A stretch of DNA of 33,383 nucleotides from an uncultured Pelagibacteraceae bacterium. GTDB lineage: Bacteria > Pseudomonadota > Alphaproteobacteria > Pelagibacterales > Pelagibacteraceae. Made by a program: the position numbers and the translations under genes. Position 1 is the stretch's first letter, and each line of letters opens with the position of its first letter. The stretch lies in assembly GCA_902540785.1 (NCBI GenBank), contig CACBOA010000008.1:1-33383 (forward strand), written 5' to 3'. This document shows positions 553 through 8,483 of the stretch, in pieces. The notes beneath the pieces are model-generated. The model was not told the origin of the DNA, made no database searches, and saw only the letters and a list, made by a program, of their open reading frames with translations.

Positions 553-1152
553 ATGAACAAATCAAAACTAATTCAATTTGAAAATAATATTGCTCAACTT
601 TTTAATAATGCCAAGATAAAAGCGCCAATCCATCTTTATAGCAACAACGAGGATAATTTAATAAAAATTTTCAAAAAAATAAAAAAAAATGATTGGGTTT
701 TTTGTTCTTGGAGATCTCACTATCAATGTTTGCTTAAAGGAGTGCCGCCAAAAATCGTTGAAAAAGAGATATTAAATGGCAAATCTATTTCTTTATGTTT
801 TCCAGAATACAATATTTATTCTTCTGCTATAGTTGGTGGAGTAATTCCAATTGCTACTGGAGTAGCCTTATCAAATAAACTTAAAAAAAAGAAATCTAAA
901 GTTTATTGCTTTGTTGGTGAAATGACTGCTGAAACTGGAATTATGCATGAATGTCTAAAGTTTTCTATAAACAAAAATCTTCCTATTCATTTTATTGTTG
1001 AGGATAATGGTAAATCAGTTTGCACTGACACTAGAAAAGCATGGTCTAAAAAAAAATTAACATTTGATGGTATAAAAACTAAATTTGTTAGTTATTACAA
1101 ATATAAACTTAAATATCCTCATGCTGGCGCTGGAAAGAGAGTGCAGTTTTAA
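553..1152 (+). CDS. ThDP-dependent enzyme, E1-alpha-like (PP-domain) subunit
   Basis: A 199-residue protein resembling the ThDP-binding core of 2-oxoacid dehydrogenase E1-alpha subunits. Recognisable pieces are WRSHYQCLLKG (53-63), VGGVIPIATGVALSNK (94-109) and the cofactor loop from 122 to 152. In E1-alpha that loop begins GDG and ends NN. Here it begins G122-E123-M124 and ends E150-D151-N152, so the terminal Asn metal ligand is kept but the Asp ligand is Glu. The protein is much shorter than E1-alpha (about 330-400 residues). The next gene, which supplies the partner pyrimidine-binding domain, starts inside this stop codon (TAATG). No lipoyl E2 or E3 gene is near, which argues for a decarboxylase or carboligase in sugar synthesis rather than a dehydrogenase complex. 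The substrate is unknown. Confidence 0.7.
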   Translation: MNKSKLIQFENNIAQLFNNAKIKAPIHLYSNNEDNLIKIFKKIKKNDWVFCSWRSHYQCLLKGVPPKIVEKEILNGKSISLCFPEYNIYSSAIVGGVIPIATGVALSNKLKKKKSKVYCFVGEMTAETGIMHECLKFSINKNLPIHFIVEDNGKSVCTDTRKAWSKKKLTFDGIKTKFVSYYKYKLKYPHAGAGKRVQF

Positions 1153-1688
1153 TGAAATATTTTAATGAACTTAAAAAATCGATGGAATTTTTGGATAAAA
1201 GTAAAAAGACATTATTTATTGGTCAAGCCGTTGAAGTTCCTGGTACAGCTATGTCAAACACACTTAAGAATGTTAAAAAAAGCAAAAGAATTGAATTACC
1301 AGTCGCTGAGGAAATGCAAATGGGAATGACTATTGGAATGTTAATGTCCGGATATGTACCTATTAGTATCTATCCAAGATGGAATTTCTTACTATTAGCA
1401 ATGAATCAATTGGTTAATCATTTAGATAAACTATCAACAATGACTGATAATAAATATAAGTCTAAAGCGATTATTAGAACAAGCATAGGATCCGAGAGAC
1501 CTCTGCACCCACAGTATCAACATATAGGAGATTACAGTTCTCAAATAAAAAAAATGTGCAAAAATATAAATGTCGTAAGGCTCTCAAATCCTAATCAGAT
1601 TTTAAAAGAATATAAAAAAGCTTTTAATAGAAAAGATGGAGTAAGTACAATCTTGGTAGAGTATGGTGATTATTACAACGAAAAATAA
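1152..1688 (+). CDS. ThDP-dependent enzyme, E1-beta-like (pyrimidine-domain) subunit, lacking the C-terminal domain
   Basis: A 178-residue protein resembling the N-terminal half of E1-beta/transketolase. ELPVAEEMQMGMTIGMLMSG (48-67) corresponds to the segment that carries the catalytic Glu contacting the ThDP aminopyrimidine, most likely E53. FLLLAMNQLVNHLDKL, about residues 78-93, matches the family helix that follows. E1-beta is normally about 330 residues and ends in a transketolase C-terminal domain. Here the protein stops after the pyrimidine domain and the domain is not encoded downstream. Overlap with the preceding stop implies translational coupling and 1:1 expression of an alpha/beta pair. 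The pair could act as a C2 carboligase or decarboxylase in nucleotide-sugar modification, which is inference. Confidence 0.7.
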   Translation: MKYFNELKKSMEFLDKSKKTLFIGQAVEVPGTAMSNTLKNVKKSKRIELPVAEEMQMGMTIGMLMSGYVPISIYPRWNFLLLAMNQLVNHLDKLSTMTDNKYKSKAIIRTSIGSERPLHPQYQHIGDYSSQIKKMCKNINVVRLSNPNQILKEYKKAFNRKDGVSTILVEYGDYYNEK

Positions 1689-1691
1689 AAT

Positions 1692-2672
1692 ATGATAATA
1701 ACAAAAACACCCTATCGTATTTCATTTTTTGGTGGTGGTTCTGATTATCCTGAATGGTTTAATAAATATTATGGTGAGGTTATTTCAACTACAATAAATA
1801 AATATTTATATATATCTTGTAGAGAATTGCCGCATTTTTTTAAACATAAATTTAGAATTGTTTATTCCAAAATTGAAAATGTTAAAACAATAAACAAAAT
1901 AAAACATAACGGTGTGAAGCAATTACTCAATTATTTAAAAGTAAAAAATGGATTAGAAATTCATTATGATGGTGACCTCCCATCAAGAAGTGGCATGGGA
2001 TCTAGTTCTTGTTTTATTGTTGGTTTACTAAACGCGTTATCAAAAGATCAAAATATAAACTTAAATAAAAAAAAACTTGCAAATATGAGTATAGAAATAG
2101 AGAGAAATATAATGAAAGAAAATGTAGGATTGCAGGACCAAATAGCTGCAAGTTATGGTGGATTTAATAGAATTAGATTTGAAAAAAATAATTATACTGT
2201 AAATAAAATAATATGTAAAAAATCATTTAGAGATGATTTAAATAAAAAACTATTTTTGCTATACACAGGAAAATCTAGAACAGCAGAAAAAATTACAAGA
2301 TCATATACAAATAAACTTAGTCAAAATAAAAAAAAAAATATCAAAAAAATTCTAGATTTTGTTGATCAAGCAAAAAAAATCATTAAACAAAATAATTCAG
2401 ATGATTTTGGATATTTATTAAATGAAACCTGGCATCAAAAAAGAGAATTAAGTAAATTAGTCTCAAACAATAAAATTGACTATTTATATAAAAAAGGCAT
2501 ATCCAGTGGTGCCCTAGGAGGAAAATTATTGGGTGCTGGAGGTGGAGGTTTTTTAATGTTTTATGTAAATCTGAATAAAAAAAAAGATTTTTTAAAATCT
2601 TTCGAAAATAATGTTATTGTTCCAATTCAGTTGTCAAATGTAGGATCAGAAATTATATTTTATGAGAAGTAA
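1692..2672 (+). CDS. hddA: D-glycero-D-manno-heptose 7-phosphate kinase (GHMP family)
   Basis: A 326-residue GHMP kinase. The N-terminus (TPYRISFFGGGSDYPEW, 6-22) is characteristic of HddA-type sugar kinases. The ATP-binding GHMP motif is LPSRSGMGSSS (96-106). The C-terminal glycine-rich motif GGKLLGAGGGGF lies at about 275-287. HddA phosphorylates D-glycero-D-manno-heptose 7-phosphate at C1 in the cytoplasm, giving the 1,7-bisphosphate. The partner enzymes GmhA, GmhB and HddC are all encoded on the opposite strand in this window, which supports the assignment over a fucokinase or other GHMP enzyme. The gene begins 3 bases after the preceding stop and overlaps the next gene by 11 bases. It contains an unusually long run of 11 A at 2328-2338, read in frame. 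Confidence 0.82.
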   Translation: MIITKTPYRISFFGGGSDYPEWFNKYYGEVISTTINKYLYISCRELPHFFKHKFRIVYSKIENVKTINKIKHNGVKQLLNYLKVKNGLEIHYDGDLPSRSGMGSSSCFIVGLLNALSKDQNINLNKKKLANMSIEIERNIMKENVGLQDQIAASYGGFNRIRFEKNNYTVNKIICKKSFRDDLNKKLFLLYTGKSRTAEKITRSYTNKLSQNKKKNIKKILDFVDQAKKIIKQNNSDDFGYLLNETWHQKRELSKLVSNNKIDYLYKKGISSGALGGKLLGAGGGGFLMFYVNLNKKKDFLKSFENNVIVPIQLSNVGSEIIFYEK

Positions 2673-3837
2673 ATTTAATCATCCATTAATGTACGACAAT
2701 ATTACTATCGAGGATAGAAAAATTGCTGCAAATTATATTAGAAACAGTAATATTTTTACTCAATCAAAAAAAGTTAAAGAGTTTGAACAAAAATGGTCTA
2801 AATGGCTTGGAGTAAAATATAGTATTTTTGTAAACTCTGGTTCATCTGCGAATTATCTAACTTTTTTAGCAATTAAAATAATTTACGGGACAGGCGAGGT
2901 AATTGTACCACCTTTAACTTGGAATTCAGATATAAACGCAGTTATTCAAAATGACTTTAAAGCAAAGTTTGTTGATATAAGTCTCAATACTTTATCAATG
3001 GATCCAAATAAGATTCTAAAAAATCTGAACAAAAATACAAAAGCAGTTTTTCTCACACACGCCCAAGGTTTTAATGGACTAACTGATAAACTTATTAAAT
3101 CTTTAAATAAAAAAAAAATATTGTTGATAGAAGATGTTTGTGAATCTCATGGTGCAACTTTTAAAAACAAAAAATTAGGATCATTTGGAAAAATTTCAAA
3201 TTTTTCTTTTTACTACGCTCATCATCTGTCTACAATTGAAGGAGGTATGATTTGTACAAATGATAAAAAAATTTATGAAACAATAAGAATTTTAAGAGGT
3301 CATGGCCTTCTAAGAGAATCAGGAAATAAGAAATTCGAGAATAAAATAAAAAAAAAATATAATAAACTTTCTCCAAACTTTATTTTTTTATATCCAGGTT
3401 TCAATATGAGAAATAATGAAATTCAGGCAATAATAGGCATAAATCAGCTTAAAAGACTTGATGCAAATAACAAACTTAGGGCTAAAAATTTTCAATTTTT
3501 TTTAAGTAAGTTAGATAAAAATAAATTTTTTACAGACTATCTGATCAAAGGTAATTCAAATTATGCATTTCCTTTAATACTAAAAACAAAATCTTTTAGG
3601 AACAGAGATAGATTTGAAAAACATTTAACAAAAAATAGGGTTGAATTTAGAAGAGGTAATGCAGGAGGTGGTAATCAGATGCGACAGCCATATTTAAAAA
3701 AAGTTATTAAAGTAAAAAATTTTAATAATTTCCAAAACGTAGAGCGTGTACATCATTTTGGATACTACATAGGTAACTTCCCTCAATTGTCCAAAAAAAA
3801 TATTATAAAATTGGTTAATATAATAAACAATTATTAA
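2662..3837 (+). CDS. DegT/DnrJ/EryC1-fold PLP enzyme lacking the PLP lysine; ColD-like sugar 3-dehydratase candidate
   Basis: A 391-residue sugar aminotransferase-fold protein. NSGSSANYL (58-66) is the PLP phosphate loop, EDVCESHGA (157-165) carries the Asp that contacts the PLP pyridine nitrogen, and FYYAHHLSTIEGGM (183-196) is the segment that normally holds the Schiff-base lysine. Here the lysine position is His187. A His at this place is the hallmark of the 3-deoxygenating enzymes ColD (GDP-4-keto-6-deoxymannose 3-dehydratase) and RfbH/E1. The only cysteines are C160 and C198, so the RfbH-type iron-sulfur cluster is absent and ColD chemistry fits better. NAGGGNQMRQPY lies near 333-344. 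The likely role is removal of the C3 hydroxyl from a 4-keto nucleotide sugar, possibly GDP-linked. The precise substrate is not visible. Confidence 0.75.
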   Translation: MRSKFNHPLMYDNITIEDRKIAANYIRNSNIFTQSKKVKEFEQKWSKWLGVKYSIFVNSGSSANYLTFLAIKIIYGTGEVIVPPLTWNSDINAVIQNDFKAKFVDISLNTLSMDPNKILKNLNKNTKAVFLTHAQGFNGLTDKLIKSLNKKKILLIEDVCESHGATFKNKKLGSFGKISNFSFYYAHHLSTIEGGMICTNDKKIYETIRILRGHGLLRESGNKKFENKIKKKYNKLSPNFIFLYPGFNMRNNEIQAIIGINQLKRLDANNKLRAKNFQFFLSKLDKNKFFTDYLIKGNSNYAFPLILKTKSFRNRDRFEKHLTKNRVEFRRGNAGGGNQMRQPYLKKVIKVKNFNNFQNVERVHHFGYYIGNFPQLSKKNIIKLVNIINNY

Positions 3838-3840
3838 TGT

Positions 3841-4314
3841 ATGTTAAAAGTAAAAACTTTTAAATCTACAATATTTAAAGATCACAGAGGTCTTTATTGG
3901 ACATCTTGGGAGAGGAAAAAAAATAGTTTAAATTTCAATCACGATAAATTCTCTATATCTAAAAAAAATACTTTAAGAGGTTTACATGGGGATTCAAAAA
4001 CTTGGAAACTTGTAAGTTGTGTTTTTGGAAAAGTATTTTTTGTTATTGTTAATTATGATAAAAAATCCCAAGATTATCTTAAGTTTAAAACAATGATACT
4101 TAAACAAGGTGAAAATATGCAAGTACTAATACCACCTTTGCATTTAAATGGTTTCTTGTGTTTATCGAATAGTTGCGTTTTTCATTATAAGTTATTTTAT
4201 AAGGGCAAATATTTTGATGTTGGTAAACAGATTTCATTAAAATGGAATGATAAATCACTAAAAATTAAATGGCCGAAGAAAAAAAAACTAATATTAAGCA
4301 AACGAGATAGATGA
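3841..4314 (+). CDS. RmlC-like nucleotide-sugar 3,5-epimerase (cupin)
   Basis: A 157-residue protein of the dTDP-4-dehydrorhamnose 3,5-epimerase fold. HDKFSISKKNTLRGLHGD (34-51) contains the family RGLH motif with the catalytic His at 49. PPLHLNGFLCL (98-108) is the second cupin motif, and ISLKWNDKSLKIKWP, near 131-145, matches the conserved C-terminal strand. It is somewhat short beside RmlC (about 180 residues). RmlC-like epimerases also act on GDP-4-keto-6-deoxyheptose in heptose modification pathways, and that role would suit this locus. It starts 3 bases after the preceding stop and overlaps the next gene by 4 bases (ATGA). Epimerase activity on a 4-keto sugar is likely; the sugar is inferred. 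Confidence 0.72.
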   Translation: MLKVKTFKSTIFKDHRGLYWTSWERKKNSLNFNHDKFSISKKNTLRGLHGDSKTWKLVSCVFGKVFFVIVNYDKKSQDYLKFKTMILKQGENMQVLIPPLHLNGFLCLSNSCVFHYKLFYKGKYFDVGKQISLKWNDKSLKIKWPKKKKLILSKRDR

Positions 4315-5249
4315 AAAATTATAAAATTTTAATTACAGGTGGCGCCGGATATATAGGTTCAATGTTATCAACAAAGCTTATTGATCTTGGTAATCAAGTT
4401 ACAGTTATAGATATTTTGGAGTATGACACTCGTTCATTAAGTCATTTATATTTAAATAAAAATTTTACCTTTTATAAAAAAGATGTAAGGGACAAAAAAT
4501 TTCTAAAAAAAATAATAAATAAATTTGACTGTGTGATCCCCTTAGCAGGTTTGGTAGGTGCTCCATTGTGTGAAAAAAGAAAAAAGGATGCAATCGAAAT
4601 AAATTTAAATGCAGTGAAAGATTTAGTTTCAATGTTATCAAAAAAACAAAAAATTATATTTACGAACTCAAATTCAGGTTATGGTATTGGAAGTAAACAA
4701 AAATTTTGTGATGAAAATTCTTCATTAAATCCAATTTCACTTTATGGCAGAACAAAAGTTGATGCTGAGAAAATTGTAATGAAATTTAAAAATGCAATAA
4801 GTTTTAGGCTCGCAACTGTTTTTGGTTATTCTTATAGAATGCGAACAGACTTATTGTTAAATAATTTAGTTCTCCTTTCCATGAGAGATAAAAAACTAGA
4901 TATATTTGAGTCTAATTTTAGAAGAAATTTTATTCACGTGAGAGATGTTTGTGACGGAATAATTTATGCAATCTATAATTTTAATAAATTGAAATCTAAT
5001 GTTTACAATTTAGGTATGTCAAAAGCAAATATTACAAAATTTGAAATGGTAAAAAAAATAAAGAAGCATATTGGAAAATTAAAAATAAAAAAAATTCATA
5101 ATGTTAAAGATCCAGACAAAAGAGATTATTTTGTAAGCAATAAAAAAATTGAAAAAAAAGGATTTAAAGCAAAAATTGATATTGATAAAGGAATTAAAGA
5201 ACTAATTGAGGTTTACAAAGCTCATAAAGATTTTATCAACAACTATTAA
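4311..5249 (+). CDS. NAD(P)-dependent sugar epimerase/dehydratase (extended SDR, GalE-like)
   Basis: A 312-residue extended short-chain dehydrogenase. The Rossmann motif TGGAGYIGS is at 9-17, acidic D34 at the end of the second strand favours NAD, and the catalytic YGRTK has Y145 and K149. The upstream catalytic Ser/Thr probably lies in TNSNSGYG (118-125). RRNFIHVRDVCDGI, near 204-217, is the usual substrate-domain motif. It could be a C4 epimerase, a 4,6-dehydratase or a 4-keto reductase; these cannot be separated by eye. No separate GMD-type GDP-sugar 4,6-dehydratase is present, so either this enzyme does that step or the dehydratase lies beyond the left edge. The final base of its stop region overlaps the stop of the convergent gene. 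Confidence 0.75.
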   Translation: MKNYKILITGGAGYIGSMLSTKLIDLGNQVTVIDILEYDTRSLSHLYLNKNFTFYKKDVRDKKFLKKIINKFDCVIPLAGLVGAPLCEKRKKDAIEINLNAVKDLVSMLSKKQKIIFTNSNSGYGIGSKQKFCDENSSLNPISLYGRTKVDAEKIVMKFKNAISFRLATVFGYSYRMRTDLLLNNLVLLSMRDKKLDIFESNFRRNFIHVRDVCDGIIYAIYNFNKLKSNVYNLGMSKANITKFEMVKKIKKHIGKLKIKKIHNVKDPDKRDYFVSNKKIEKKGFKAKIDIDKGIKELIEVYKAHKDFINNY

Positions 5250-6430
5250 TTTAATATTTTGTTTAACTTTTTTAAATTTATATTATTAATATTCATGAAT
5301 TTAACACCTGTTTTGTTTGCACAAATCTCATCAGATATTTGATCTCCTATCATTATAGATTTTTTTTTAATTAAAGACCAATTTTGAAAAAGATTTAATA
5401 ACATTCCATTTCCAGGTTTACGAAGATTTGTTTTTTTTCTATAAATTTTTAATTTTGCATCTTCATGAAATGGACAAAATTGAACATCGTCTATAAAAAT
5501 ATCTAACGAACATAATCTCTTTTTCAATTCTAATTGAAAATTAAAAAATTGTTTTTCAGTAAAAATTCCTTTTCCTATACCTGATTGATTTGTAACTATA
5601 AAAATATAAATGTTTTTTTTATTTATGTTTCTTAAAGTATTTACAAAGTTTTTTTTAATTTTTAATTCATTAATATTATGGATATAACCTTTGTCATTTA
5701 TAATTGTGTTATCTCTATCAAGGAATAATGCGGGTCTTGTTAAATAATTAATGAGGTTTTTTTTAGCACTATTTAAATTTTTTGGGGTACCAATATCTAT
5801 AAAGAAATCGTTAAAAACTATTCCTTTTACTTTTTTTGTCTCAATCAATTTTGGTATAATATCGTTTTCTAAAGAATAATTTTTTCTTTTAATTTGTTTT
5901 AAAAAAAATTTATTAAATTTATAAATACCACCGTTAATTAAAATAGACTTTTTATGATAGGAAATTTGATTATATTTATTAATCTTTAAAAAAGTTAACT
6001 TCTTATTTGATTTATAATTATGATTTTTTACTAAAGATAGAAAAATTTCATTTTTCTTTAGTTTATAATTTATGACTTCTGATAAATTTATATCAAAAAA
6101 AGTATCACCATTAATAACAATAAATTCATTATTTATTTTATTATGAAGCTGCGAAAGTGATCCTGCAGTGCCAAGGGGCTTTTTTTCAATTATCACCTCT
6201 GTTTCAACAAAATTAAAATTTTTTTTATGATATTTCTTTTTAATTTGAGAACCTCTGTAACCAGCAAGAATATATAATTTATTAAAGTTATATTTACATA
6301 TCTTTTTTATTAATAAATCTAAAAATATAAAATTATTAATTTTAATTAATGGCTTTGGTTTTTTATTCAAATAATTCTTGATTCTTGAGCCTCTGCCCCC
6401 AGCCAAAATAATTATATCTGTTTTATTCAA
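5246..6430 (-). CDS. hddC-gmhB: Fusion of heptose 1-phosphate guanylyltransferase (HddC-like) and heptose 1,7-bisphosphate phosphatase (GmhB-like)
   Basis: A 394-residue two-domain protein. Residues 1 to about 228 are a sugar-nucleotidyltransferase: LAGGRGSRI (9-17), KPKPLIKI (24-31) and metal-binding NGDT with D109. Residues 232-394 are a HAD phosphatase of GmhB type: DRDNT (nucleophile D238, acid/base D240), VTNQSGIGKG (279-288), RKP (337-339) and GDQISDE (362-368). The pair would remove the 7-phosphate of heptose 1,7-bisphosphate and then load GMP on C1, consecutive steps to GDP-heptose. The GmhB zinc loop (CxH...CxC in E. coli GmhB) is degenerate: C319 remains, the His position is F321, and the CxC is T334-N-L336. 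It is last in the gmhA operon. Its stop codon overlaps that of the convergent SDR gene. Confidence 0.82.
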   Translation of the reverse strand: MNKTDIIILAGGRGSRIKNYLNKKPKPLIKINNFIFLDLLIKKICKYNFNKLYILAGYRGSQIKKKYHKKNFNFVETEVIIEKKPLGTAGSLSQLHNKINNEFIVINGDTFFDINLSEVINYKLKKNEIFLSLVKNHNYKSNKKLTFLKINKYNQISYHKKSILINGGIYKFNKFFLKQIKRKNYSLENDIIPKLIETKKVKGIVFNDFFIDIGTPKNLNSAKKNLINYLTRPALFLDRDNTIINDKGYIHNINELKIKKNFVNTLRNINKKNIYIFIVTNQSGIGKGIFTEKQFFNFQLELKKRLCSLDIFIDDVQFCPFHEDAKLKIYRKKTNLRKPGNGMLLNLFQNWSLIKKKSIMIGDQISDEICANKTGVKFMNINNINLKKLNKILN

Positions 6431-6435
6431 TTTTT

Positions 6436-7596
6436 TTACCTTTTAAACTTATTAATTAAAATTTTTATAATTATAAAAGGAAATTTAACTAAATTTTCCA
6501 AAATAATTGGTATTTGAGATAATTTATTTTTATTAAGATTAAGTAATAATGCTTCACAAATTTCTTTAACGTAGACTAATAAATTTGATCGTTTTGAAAT
6601 ATTTCTAATTTTCTGGTTAAAAAAAACTCTGATATACCAATAAGGCATAGTGTAAGTTATGTTATTTTTATGAACAACTTTTTTTATAATTTTTTGTAAA
6701 ATATTTCTAAAATACTCATGATCTTCATATTCAAAACATTTTTTAACAAATATATCTTTTTTCGTCTTATATTGATCTTCATCATTTAAAAAAAATTTAC
6801 ATAGTTTTAAAAGTTCCTGTTTATTATTAAAAGTTGGTAGATCCTGATCAAATAAAATTTGATTTGCCGGTGAAAATTCTGATAAGCACAATGAATTACA
6901 TAAACCAACCATTATTGGTCTACCTTTAAATGAAAAAAAATTATGAGGGATTGTAGGGTGTGAGTAAAATTTGTTTTTGTTACCTGTATTTGAAAAATTT
7001 AATACGATTTTTGACTGAGATATAAATTTGCTCAGATTATCCCAATTATAATCAGGTGGAATGTTATAGCCCATAAGATTTACATTTATATTATTTTCAT
7101 TTAGATATTTTAAATATTCATCTCTTGTTGATTTTTTGGCACCAAAAAAAGAAATATCATATTTTTTTTTTGTATCGATTTTTTTGAATAGATTTTTGTT
7201 TGCCTCTAATGGAACAAAATAACTATCAAATCCTTTTTCCAAATATCTATAATTAGAAATTGGACACGCTGTAAAAATAAAGTTAAATGCTTTGGCAGAA
7301 ATAAAATTGACTTCATGCATATCATAATCATCAGTTAGAAATAAAATTTTTTTGTTACAATTTATTTTTGAAATAAAATCATAATTAATCAACGATAAGT
7401 AGTCACCTTCTGCAACTAAATAATTTATTTTATCCTTATATATTAAATTGTTTATTTCTTTAATAATATTTTTTTCTGGCTTATTTAAATTTTCGTTTAA
7501 ATAAAAGTTAATTACCTCGAATTCTATTTTAAATTTATAATTAAGAACCTCTGAATAGAAACCATTAGTTTTATTGATTATAATTATTTTTTCCAT
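6436..7596 (-). CDS. Glycosyltransferase, CgeB-like (GT-B type)
   Basis: About 386 residues, starting at the Met of MEKIIIINKTNG. An in-frame ATG at 7614 would add six residues but lies inside the gmhA coding region. The pattern LFLTDDYDMHEVNFI..., then TACPISNYRYLEKGFDSYFVPLEAN, DISFFGAKKSTRDEYLKYL and a C-terminal half with KGRPIMVGLCNSL, resembles CgeB/Glyco_trans_1_2 glycosyltransferases that use a nucleotide-sugar donor at the cytoplasmic face. Family similarity is only moderate, so the fold call is probable and donor and acceptor are unknown. The C-terminal ~80 residues are basic and hydrophobic, which may help membrane association. It sits between gmhA and hddC-gmhB, so it may transfer the heptose made here. 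Confidence 0.6.
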   Translation of the reverse strand: MEKIIIINKTNGFYSEVLNYKFKIEFEVINFYLNENLNKPEKNIIKEINNLIYKDKINYLVAEGDYLSLINYDFISKINCNKKILFLTDDYDMHEVNFISAKAFNFIFTACPISNYRYLEKGFDSYFVPLEANKNLFKKIDTKKKYDISFFGAKKSTRDEYLKYLNENNINVNLMGYNIPPDYNWDNLSKFISQSKIVLNFSNTGNKNKFYSHPTIPHNFFSFKGRPIMVGLCNSLCLSEFSPANQILFDQDLPTFNNKQELLKLCKFFLNDEDQYKTKKDIFVKKCFEYEDHEYFRNILQKIIKKVVHKNNITYTMPYWYIRVFFNQKIRNISKRSNLLVYVKEICEALLLNLNKNKLSQIPIILENLVKFPFIIIKILINKFKR

Positions 7597-7600
7597 AAAA

Positions 7601-8209
7601 CTATTTAGATGCAAAAGTCTCTAAATAATCACAAAGTATTTGCCCTAAAAATATTTCAATTACTTGAATTTGAGAAGTGGTTTTAGATGGTATCAATATT
7701 AAATTCTTAGTATATCGCTTTAATTTCCCACCATTGTTCCCCGAAAAAGCATGAAAATTTATCCCCATTTTTTTTGAAAGTTTAGCAGCTTCAATTAAAT
7801 TTTGACTATTTCCTGAGGTAGTGATTGCTAAACATAAATCTCCCTTATTTCCTAATGCTTCAAGCTGTCTTGAAAATATATACTTGAATCCAAAATCATT
7901 TCCAATTGCAGTGAGTGCAGATGTATCTGTTGCTAGTGAAATTGCTGATATCGCTTTTCTATTTTTTTTATATCTTACTGTAAGTTCAGTAGCTAAATGT
8001 TGAGCATCAGATGCACTACCTCCATTTCCAAAAAAAATAATTTTTTTTCTATTTTTAATTGCCTTTTGAGCCTGATTACATAAATTCAAAAATGAGGGTA
8101 AATTAATAAAATTTAGTTTGTTTAATAAGTTTAAAACTCCTTTTTTCTCATTATTGAAAATTTTGTAAAGTTTAGTATTTTTTGGCATTGAATTATTTTG
8201 ATTAGACAT
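7601..8209 (-). CDS. gmhA: Sedoheptulose 7-phosphate isomerase (phosphoheptose isomerase)
   Basis: A 202-residue SIS-domain protein. FGNGGSASDAQHLATEL (60-76), SALTAIGNDFGF (98-109) and TTSGNSQNLIEAAK (130-143) are strongly GmhA-like. GmhA converts sedoheptulose 7-phosphate to D-glycero-D-manno-heptose 7-phosphate, the first committed step to heptose in the outer polysaccharide. The usual zinc ligands map to H71, E75, Q182 and a fourth position. That position is His in E. coli GmhA (H180) but Gln190 here (LGQILCD). DiaA is the main alternative SIS family, but the flanking heptose genes favour GmhA. It is first in a minus-strand operon with the glycosyltransferase and hddC-gmhB. A second in-frame ATG at codon 8 is possible, but the first is kept. 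Confidence 0.85.
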   Translation of the reverse strand: MSNQNNSMPKNTKLYKIFNNEKKGVLNLLNKLNFINLPSFLNLCNQAQKAIKNRKKIIFFGNGGSASDAQHLATELTVRYKKNRKAISAISLATDTSALTAIGNDFGFKYIFSRQLEALGNKGDLCLAITTSGNSQNLIEAAKLSKKMGINFHAFSGNNGGKLKRYTKNLILIPSKTTSQIQVIEIFLGQILCDYLETFASK

Positions 8210-8315: not shown

Positions 8316-8391
8316 GGGCGGTTAGCTCAGTTGGTAGAGCATCTCGTTTACACCGAGGGGGTCAAAGGTTCGAGTCCTTTACTGCCCACCA
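8316..8391 (+). tRNA. tRNA-Val (anticodon UAC)
   Basis: A 76-base cloverleaf. The acceptor stem GGGCGGT pairs with ACTGCCC (8381-8387) with one G-U pair. The D arm is GCTC/GAGC, the anticodon stem TCTCG/CGAGG holds loop TTTACAC with anticodon TAC, and the T arm contains GGTTCGAGTCC. Discriminator A and a genome-encoded CCA end at 8391. It is followed 15 bases later by tRNA-Asp, probably in one transcript. Confidence 0.96.
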
Positions 8392-8406
8392 AAATGTATC
8401 ATAAGT

Positions 8407-8483
8407 GGGGGTGTAGCTCAGTTGGTTAGAGCGATCGCCTGTCACGCGATAGGTCGAGGGTTCGAGTCCCTTCACTCCCGCCA
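8407..8483 (+). tRNA. tRNA-Asp (anticodon GUC)
   Basis: A 77-base cloverleaf. The acceptor GGGGGTG pairs with CACTCCC (8473-8479) with one G-U pair. The anticodon stem ATCGC/GCGAT holds loop CTGTCAC with anticodon GTC. The T arm contains GGGTTCGAGTCCC, discriminator G is at 8480 and CCA is encoded at 8481-8483. It lies between tRNA-Val and the nuo promoter region. Confidence 0.96.

Follow-up and report, generated by a model that had tools for sequence, protein, structure and literature searches.

Genes of a heptose island in a SAR11 contig

We analysed contig CACBOA010000008.1 of an uncultured Pelagibacteraceae bacterium (assembly GCA_902540785.1), a stretch of 33,383 nucleotides referred to here as the window, and looked at the sugar genes at positions 553 to 8209, which we read as a probable pathway to a branched deoxyheptose. 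In a genome assembled to 933 kb in 51 contigs (80.9% complete) it forms contig C8, and the nearest relatives with a name belong to the Pelagibacteraceae (the SAR11 group). The genes that a first-pass annotation had named there were real open reading frames (ORFs), lay where it had placed them and gave the expected family matches, with a methyltransferase gene cut by the contig end. The genes from 553 to 5249 are closely packed on the + strand, several starts overlapping the preceding stop, and they are faced by hddC-gmhB, a glycosyltransferase-like gene and gmhA on the − strand. All NCBIfam equivalog models stayed below their cut-offs, so that the gene names used below rest on the best relatives and on context.

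The first-pass annotation had derived a GDP-heptose pathway from gmhA, hddA and hddC-gmhB, and this was borne out. The gmhA gene (sedoheptulose 7-phosphate isomerase; 7601 to 8209, − strand) matched TIGR00441 at 4.1e-49, below its cut-off. The hddA product (D-glycero-D-manno-heptose 7-phosphate kinase; 1692 to 2672, + strand) matched NF049969 at 5e-44, likewise below cut-off, and PDB entries 4n3o (1.4e-38) and 3k85 (1.2e-36), the first of which, its best solved relative, is a putative HddA. The hddC-gmhB fusion (a guanylyltransferase joined to a heptose bisphosphate phosphatase; 5246 to 6430, − strand) stayed under the cut-offs of NF049965 (4.8e-31) and TIGR00213 (4e-31), and its best PDB matches were GmhB (3l8e/2gmw) and a 6-deoxy-D-mannoheptose pathway protein (5xhw/6jq8); hddA and hddC-gmhB are thus nearest to heptose-pathway proteins.

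Three further genes point to modification of this heptose. The short-chain dehydrogenase/reductase (SDR; 4311 to 5249, + strand) matched PDB 6vo6/6vo8 at 1.1e-87 (second-best entry 8.4e-22), which we take to be the Campylobacter C4-dehydrogenase Cj1427, and its catalytic pair Tyr145-xxx-Lys149 was present in 123 of 123 aligned rows. A structure paper on Cj1427 is cited in PMC10680097. By this kinship, overlooked in the first-pass annotation, the SDR would oxidise C4 of GDP-heptose, a reaction that enzymes of the Cj1427 type couple to 2-oxoglutarate recycling. The next enzyme, dependent on pyridoxal or pyridoxamine phosphate (PLP/PMP; 2662 to 3837, + strand), is a 3-dehydratase of the ColD type (PDB ColD 1.8e-56, compared with 2.5e-33 for the best aminotransferase-type chain). 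The histidine reported there in place of the Schiff-base lysine, His187, was kept in 131/131 rows and again in 17/17 when more distant sequences were aligned (the PLP, ThA and ThB alignments count the window twice), and it stands where ColD has its catalytic histidine, presumably His188. The RmlC-like epimerase (C5, or C3/C5; 3841 to 4314, + strand) is of the GDP-4-keto-heptose type: its nearest PDB entries, 8dco and 8dcl (~1e-32), are named GDP-D-glycero-4-keto-D-lyxo-heptose epimerases, compared with 1.1e-16 for dTDP-sugar RmlC. Its active-site residues His49, Lys56, Asn103, Tyr116 and Asp156 are kept and correspond, by alignment and numbering offset, to H67, K74, N121, Y134 and D173 of the Campylobacter epimerases.

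Cj1427 together with the HS:5 C3-dehydratase yields GDP-3-deoxy-4-keto-heptose (compound 33) in vitro, which an epimerase turns into compound 36 (PMC10680097). The natural Campylobacter 3-deoxy route begins with a 4,6-dehydratase (PMC10680097), and the first-pass annotation had missed one of the GMD type in the window and supposed that it might lie to the left. The kinship of the SDR to the C4-dehydrogenase makes such an enzyme unnecessary, since relatives of C4-dehydrogenase, His-type 3-dehydratase and epimerase share one natural operon here. Two genes of the GDP-mannose 4,6-dehydratase family were observed elsewhere in the genome, away from the heptose island (contig C10, 10444 to 11427; contig C28, 1890 to 2810); these are its two strong PF16363 matches (2.6e-140 and 3.4e-80, respectively), and C10 has more SDR matches.

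The two first genes of the run encode a split thiamine diphosphate (ThDP) enzyme related to the E1 component of pyruvate dehydrogenase (PDH). ThA (553 to 1152, + strand; 199 residues) is a truncated alpha subunit of the PDH E1-alpha type (E1_dh 6.9e-17; profile match to human PDH E1-alpha 3.4e-16), and its predicted fold (pLDDT 92.0) was closest to that of human PDH E1-alpha, at half the length. ThB (1152 to 1688, + strand; 178 residues) is a beta subunit of the PDH E1-beta type by profile that comprises the pyrimidine-binding domain only (Transket_pyr 2.4e-7). With no Transketolase_C match in Pfam it does not qualify as a full-length beta subunit; we had expected this domain in sugar-branching beta subunits from the length of Pau12 and from PDH E1-beta. 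The pair does have the two-subunit E1-alpha plus E1-beta make-up of the alpha-KADH2 enzymes discussed below. Conservation was complete for Arg54, His56, Gly122, Met124, Glu150, Asn152 and His190 of ThA (172/172 rows) and for Glu53 of ThB, the candidate catalytic glutamate (169/169). The Mg-site motif of ThA reads G-[D/E]-M...N in 172/172 rows, its third residue departing from the GDG...N that we presume to be the expected ThDP/Mg motif.

Ordinary PDH complex subunits were ruled out by the half-length ThA and by the lack of a Transketolase_C match in ThB, and a YerE-type decarboxylase was ruled out as well, that type being a single-chain flavoprotein where we see two short E1-type subunits. In plasmid records every ThA relative fell below 60% identity (213/213), with ordinary E1-alpha-type annotations among the matches listed. 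In cyanophages S-SM2 and P-TIM68, ThA and ThB are fused as one 402-residue ORF near annotated phosphoheptose isomerase genes, a sign that the two work together as a single enzyme; these copies are only 35-38% identical, and no radical S-adenosylmethionine (SAM) or PLP relative was found in the phage stretches fetched. Other arrangements of split ThDP genes were also seen. In eight loci (L036, where it measures ~280 + ~310 residues, L059, L061, L067, L072, L074, L085 and L103) a second, longer pair stands between a radical-SAM gene and ThA/ThB, immediately upstream of the latter. Viral contigs L188 and L189 carry two ThA/ThB pairs per locus, with ThA ~64% and ~50% identical to that of the window, and a 735 kb phage (LR756501.1, L209; record without deposited annotation) has separate, diverged ThA and ThB (36 and 34%).

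The remaining island genes are the glycosyltransferase-like gene (6436 to 7614, − strand; PF13524 7.1e-5, under the Pfam gathering score) and the 5' part of an FkbM-family methyltransferase gene (3 to 482, − strand; TIGR01444 3.7e-10), whose C-terminus lies past the contig end. On the right the island is bordered by tRNA-Val and tRNA-Asp (within 8316-8483), followed by NADH dehydrogenase genes (from 8590).

A radical-SAM partner gene

The first-pass annotation also lacked a gene that the window does not contain. Contig C36 of the same genome (locus L046) carries, in order, an ORF open at its start and without Pfam match, a radical-SAM gene and lon. In the close relative L048 the order is radical SAM, a 370-residue ORF without Pfam match, a methyltransferase gene and ThA. 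The first ORF of C36 matched residues 85-366 of this 370-residue ORF (40%), and the methyltransferase fragment of the window was 47% identical to residues 40-199 of the 314-residue methyltransferase of L048. From this synteny and the two broken flanking genes, C36 is very probably the immediate left-hand neighbour of the window, ~0.6 kb off as estimated from the missing portions of both broken genes, and lon is probably the left border of the island. No end overlap of 15-399 bases was found between C36 and the window, and the contigs were left unjoined. As for the 4,6-dehydratase suspected to the left, none was present in the window or on C36, the ~0.6 kb gap being unread.

A radical-SAM gene of the same kind (~510-525 residues, with a B12-binding-domain match) lies in or beside the cluster in five of eight relatives from the SAR11 order (L035, L036, L037, L041 and L042); the others are L038 and L040, both on contigs below 4 kb, and L039, where it is absent over 20 kb.

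Distribution of the gene set in bacteria and phages

We scanned genome contigs with the ThA alignment and kept the best 80 of 148 relatives, and did the same in IMG/VR, keeping 80 of at least 590 viral stretches; a separate viral radical-SAM search gave the best 80 of 152. The counts thus describe the closest loci, with near-copies kept (they were removed for the tree), and family calls follow blastp thresholds of our own choosing with reference proteins partly drawn from the same loci. Bacterial relatives bore the titles Pelagibacteraceae, Nitrospira, Betaproteobacteria, Verrucomicrobia, Planctomycetaceae, Cyanobacteria and others, several phyla in all. Among the 80 bacterial loci we called ThB in 80, hddA in 73, PLP in 71, radical SAM in 66, hddC in 63, SDR in 60, Fcl-like SDRs in 36, gmhB in 19, gmhA in 18, RmlC in 11 and GMD in 3. 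The viral loci gave radical SAM 78, ThB 77, SDR 60, PLP 58, hddA 51, RmlC 23, GMD 9, Fcl-like 7 and gmhA 1. When only stretches of at least 17 kb were counted, the numbers were hddA 48, radical SAM 46, PLP 45 and SDR 42 for bacteria (n=50), and SDR 41, radical SAM 41, PLP 32 and hddA 25 for viruses (n=42). All six core genes (ThA, ThB, hddA, PLP, SDR and radical SAM) were present in 47 bacterial and 37 viral loci, and five or more in 70 and 56, respectively. The same set is found in unrelated genomes, and the combination is thus not due to chance.

The first-pass annotation had stated that its proposal would fall if the ThDP pair and the PLP enzyme were common in the absence of heptose genes. 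We found hddA, SDR or gmhA in 75/80 bacterial and 74/80 viral loci located through ThA; of the 11 loci without such a call, eight are stretches under 12 kb and three measure ~20 kb.

In its most compact form, the set is a phage cassette of six contiguous genes on one strand, radical SAM-ThA-ThB-hddA-PLP-SDR (L128 and L174). The T4-type major capsid protein Gp23 was found in the fetched stretches of L128, L174 and L144, which ruled out misfiled contigs for these three; this hallmark is shown for them only and not for L184, L164, L195 or other viral loci. The 75 flanking ORFs of five viral loci (17 in L128, 4 in L174, 21 in L184, 14 in L164 and 19 in L195) also included scaffold, prohead protease and weak terminase matches, not assigned to individual loci. 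A ThA+ThB tree of 108 pairs, made by a quick method, had six changes of viral label, at least three of them forced by well-supported branches. These changes point to several transfers between bacteria and phages, in one direction or the other.

The survey of SAR11 genomes that had been suggested as a check was run on 297 genomes of this order, a selection out of a larger group. Carriers numbered 9 for short ThA (those at ≥47% identity out of 93 genomes with a ThA match), 10 for radical SAM, 21 for SDR and 16 for PLP (E <1e-100, out of 85 genomes listed). ThA and radical SAM occurred together in 6 genomes against 0.30 expected (p 1.9e-8), ThA with SDR in 5 (p 1.1e-4), ThA with PLP in 5 (p 2.6e-5), radical SAM with SDR in 9 of 10 (p 6.5e-11) and SDR with PLP in 12 (p 6e-13), all of these p values being optimistic since related genomes are not independent.

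Searches that started from the radical-SAM gene gave a broader picture. Of the 80 viral radical-SAM loci, 37 had a ThA-type subunit as their nearest ThDP subunit, 15 a long E1 pair and 13 a split transketolase, and 15 had none. Across 385 Alphaproteobacteria the radical-SAM gene was present in 16, our genome among them. Neighbourhoods were obtained for 12 of the 15 others and held an alpha-type ThDP subunit in 9, a beta-type only in 1 and none in 2, together with a His-type PLP enzyme in 10, SDR in 9 and hddA in 9. In bacteria the ThDP type therefore varies, and radical SAM, 3-dehydratase, C4-dehydrogenase and heptose genes are mostly constant. Split transketolases lie near radical SAM in L238, L241, L244, L228 and L304. 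The last, an 8.0 Mb single-contig alphaproteobacterium, has radical SAM, hddA, TK-N, TK-C, His-type PLP, gmhA and SDR, the split transketolase replacing ThA/ThB. Because radical SAM also occurs near such different split ThDP pairs, the ThDP and radical-SAM tandem looks like the core of the set, and because it mostly has a ThDP subunit nearby, whatever the ThDP type, the radical-SAM enzyme most likely acts on the ThDP product.

Proposed pathway, alternatives and meaning

We propose, with a probability of about 0.6, that the locus makes a GDP-activated 3-deoxyheptose, branched at C4 by a two-carbon unit and destined for a surface polysaccharide. The SDR would oxidise C4 of GDP-heptose with O6 retained, the His-type PLP enzyme would take off O3, and the RmlC-like enzyme, where present (SAR11 and some viruses), would invert C5. 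The split ThDP enzyme would decarboxylate a 2-oxo acid, most likely pyruvate, and place the acyl anion on the C4 ketone to give a 4-C-acetyl tertiary alcohol, an addition that would stand in for the usual C4-reductase; no Fcl-type C4-reductase was called in the window. The radical-SAM enzyme with its B12-binding domain, whose gene lies just beyond the end of the assembled window, would tailor the branched product, and the glycosyltransferase and methyltransferase would complete the pathway. Sequence evidence covers the genes, their families and their co-occurrence, and C4 oxidation, 3-deoxygenation and epimerisation have been carried out in vitro with Campylobacter enzymes (PMC10680097); we infer the substrate, donor and site of the ThDP step and the whole radical-SAM step. 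The earlier suggestion of a 3-deoxy or C2-branched heptose is supported for the deoxygenation and for ThDP branching, and is revised for the position of the branch, which is chemically expected at C4, the ketone, rather than at C2.

Known systems provide precedents for parts of this scheme. The GDP-D-glycero-heptose/GDP-3,6-dideoxyheptose pathways of Campylobacter jejuni (PMC10680097) share the GDP-heptose supply, the C4-dehydrogenase, the kind of His-type 3-dehydratase and the RmlC-like epimerase; there, however, the natural 3-deoxy route has the 4,6-dehydratase first and a C4-reductase last, whereas here the C4-dehydrogenase and 3-dehydratase are naturally together, a ThDP pair replaces the reductase and a radical SAM is added. 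Two-subunit ThDP enzymes of the PDH-like kind are known or proposed to attach C2 branches to antibiotic keto sugars (PMC12247030, PMC4425429, PMC4753412), the donor being pyruvate in the tested cases (aldgamycin and the kibdelomycin enzyme) and proposed as such for AviB1/B2. These alpha-KADH2 pairs (AviB1/AviB2, Pau11/Pau12, kibdelomycin KbDH) resemble ThA/ThB in being two-subunit PDH-like enzymes encoded beside keto-sugar genes and in placing a C2 branch at a ketone, but the examples considered belong to antibiotic pathways, and Pau11/Pau12 are longer than ThA/ThB (325 + 345 residues, 199 + 178 here; PMC12247030, PMC4425429); the SAR11-type pair stands with GDP-heptose genes in surface-glycan-type loci of Gram-negative bacteria and phages. 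YerE performs the equivalent C2 addition for yersiniose (PMC12247030). The logic there is the same, a 3-deoxy-4-keto nucleotide sugar (CDP-3,6-dideoxy-4-keto-glucose) followed by ThDP addition to C4, with the differences that YerE is one flavoprotein chain belonging to the decarboxylase superfamily and the substrate a CDP-hexose rather than a GDP-heptose. The split-gene transketolases of miharamycin and amipurimycin are likewise split ThDP enzymes proposed to branch a keto sugar; they serve Streptomyces nucleoside antibiotics, and their branching role is unproven as well (PMC12247030).

Several observations weigh against the proposal and its predicted product. ThA/ThB lack half of E1-alpha and Transketolase_C and have GEM/GDM in place of GDG, so that the shortened pair may not be an ordinary acyl-anion transferase. 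The radical-SAM gene is on a separate contig, placed by synteny with L048 and the two broken flanking genes. Short ThA is absent from 8 of the 12 SAR11-order genomes that have SDR and PLP, and six of these eight (G094, G154, G186, G230, G252 and G278) show a weak ThA match in a longer frame (277-289 residues) on the SDR contig, within ~10 kb. Among the 15 viral radical-SAM loci without a ThDP subunit, four are among the 46 whose stretches measure 17 kb or more, and the viral split-transketolase loci L238, L241 and L244 retain RmlC with no SDR or PLP call. L039 (20 kb) has ThA/ThB, hddA and RmlC with no radical-SAM, SDR or PLP call. All 11 bacterial RmlC calls come from Pelagibacteraceae, and with no more than these and the 23 viral ones, C5 inversion is not general. 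Finally, Fcl-like SDRs, also found in SAR11 loci L041 and L042, could reduce C4 or the branch where they are present.

The radical-SAM step leaves room for two other assignments. The enzyme may be a methylcobalamin-dependent C-methyltransferase that methylates the branched heptose, a serious possibility to which we give somewhat less than an even chance. The protein has Radical_SAM and B12-binding domains over the Pfam cut-offs, keeps the three cysteines of CxxxCxxC in at least 150 of 151 rows, and its predicted fold (pLDDT 94.8) is closest to TsrM, AprD4, MgmA and OxsB and also near CysS and TokK. However, it is the sole PF02310 protein over cut-off in our genome and in five other SAR11 carriers (four, G186, G252, G280 and G282, carry additional ones), a search for cobalamin riboswitches came up empty in 10/10 SAR11 carriers, and SAR11 is described as lacking MetH (PMC12478193) and as a B12 auxotroph (PMC9296465). 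Either B12 would be taken up for few enzymes, or the radical-SAM domain may no longer bind it. The closest solved chain by profile is moreover AprD4 (6fd2, 5.9e-16), a sugar diol-dehydratase, which is also among the best folds (TM score 0.69 by query length) and acts on a sugar derivative, paromamine. Removal of another hydroxyl from the side chain by an AprD4-like radical dehydratase seems unlikely to us all the same, identity being only 16-17% and HpnJ and BchE ranking ahead of AprD4 in NCBIfam. 

We also regard as unlikely an unbranched 3-deoxyheptose, with C4 reduced by an enzyme encoded elsewhere and the ThDP pair making something else, such as an acyl donor for a substituent: C4-reductases did give unbranched GDP-3-deoxyheptoses in vitro (PMC10680097), Fcl-like SDRs occur in 36 of the bacterial loci and the GMD-type and further SDR genes on C10 and C28 are at hand, but the compact phage cassettes of L128 and L174, in which ThA, ThB, hddA, PLP and SDR stand close together, gave no reductase call, an Fcl-type call is also missing from 24 of 50 bacterial loci measuring 17 kb or more, and a detached ThDP role leaves its frequent company with 3-dehydratase and C4-dehydrogenase unexplained.

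Starting from the proposed C4-branched heptose, a more speculative extension, which we regard as improbable, is that the ThDP and radical-SAM tandem builds a carbocycle, namely a cyclopentane-fused nonose of the type of caryose, a sugar known from one plant bacterium. The ThDP enzyme would place an acetyl (C8, C9) on C4 of GDP-3-deoxy-4-keto-heptose, and the radical-SAM enzyme would then generate a radical at C7 that closes onto the C8 carbonyl. The carbon skeleton of caryose is that of a 3-deoxyheptose with a C2 unit on C4, and its C2 left, C5 left and C6 right (Fischer, by our own decoding) equal compound 36 with a D-glycero C6; caryose differs in requiring one more bond, C7-C8. This is a structural argument only, in which three centres would match by chance one time in eight, and it is weakened by the scarcity of RmlC, required for C5, in the bacterial and viral loci. 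No title of Trinickia, the genus of the caryose producer, was present among the best 80 of 148 ThA relatives. For bradyrhizose, which was also considered, PMC4743980 gives the genes as unknown, with a proposed 11-gene cluster that includes a dTDP-glucose 4,6-dehydratase.

Every enzyme of the locus is of a known family. The combination, which the first-pass annotation did not recognise, was not met in the literature searched either: GDP-heptose, ThDP pair and radical SAM were not found joined in the open PMC literature, most of it considered by title and opening of the abstract, and the survey of Krug et al. (2024) may list some of the loci. Radical-SAM gene cassettes and lipopolysaccharide genes have been noted in pelagimyophage variable regions, with no pathway assigned in the passages concerned (PMC7029224). 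Within these limits the pathway, ThDP branching on GDP-heptose, the pairing of ThDP enzyme and radical SAM and the presence of this tandem in T4-like phages are not described. An undescribed surface-sugar pathway would thus be present in one of the most abundant bacterial groups of the ocean and in T4-like phages. If our reading is true, it extends ThDP sugar branching to GDP-heptoses, adds a recurrent ThDP and radical-SAM tandem to sugar biochemistry, and makes the six-gene phage cassette a means of altering, as we suppose, host or virion glycans. If the caryose-type carbocycle were true as well, caryose-like sugars would occur in SAR11, with stereo-variants in Nitrospira, Verrucomicrobia and T4-like phages, through a new enzymatic carbocyclisation. 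The locus would also supply genes that can be tested as the source of branched or carbocyclic bacterial sugars whose origin is unknown.

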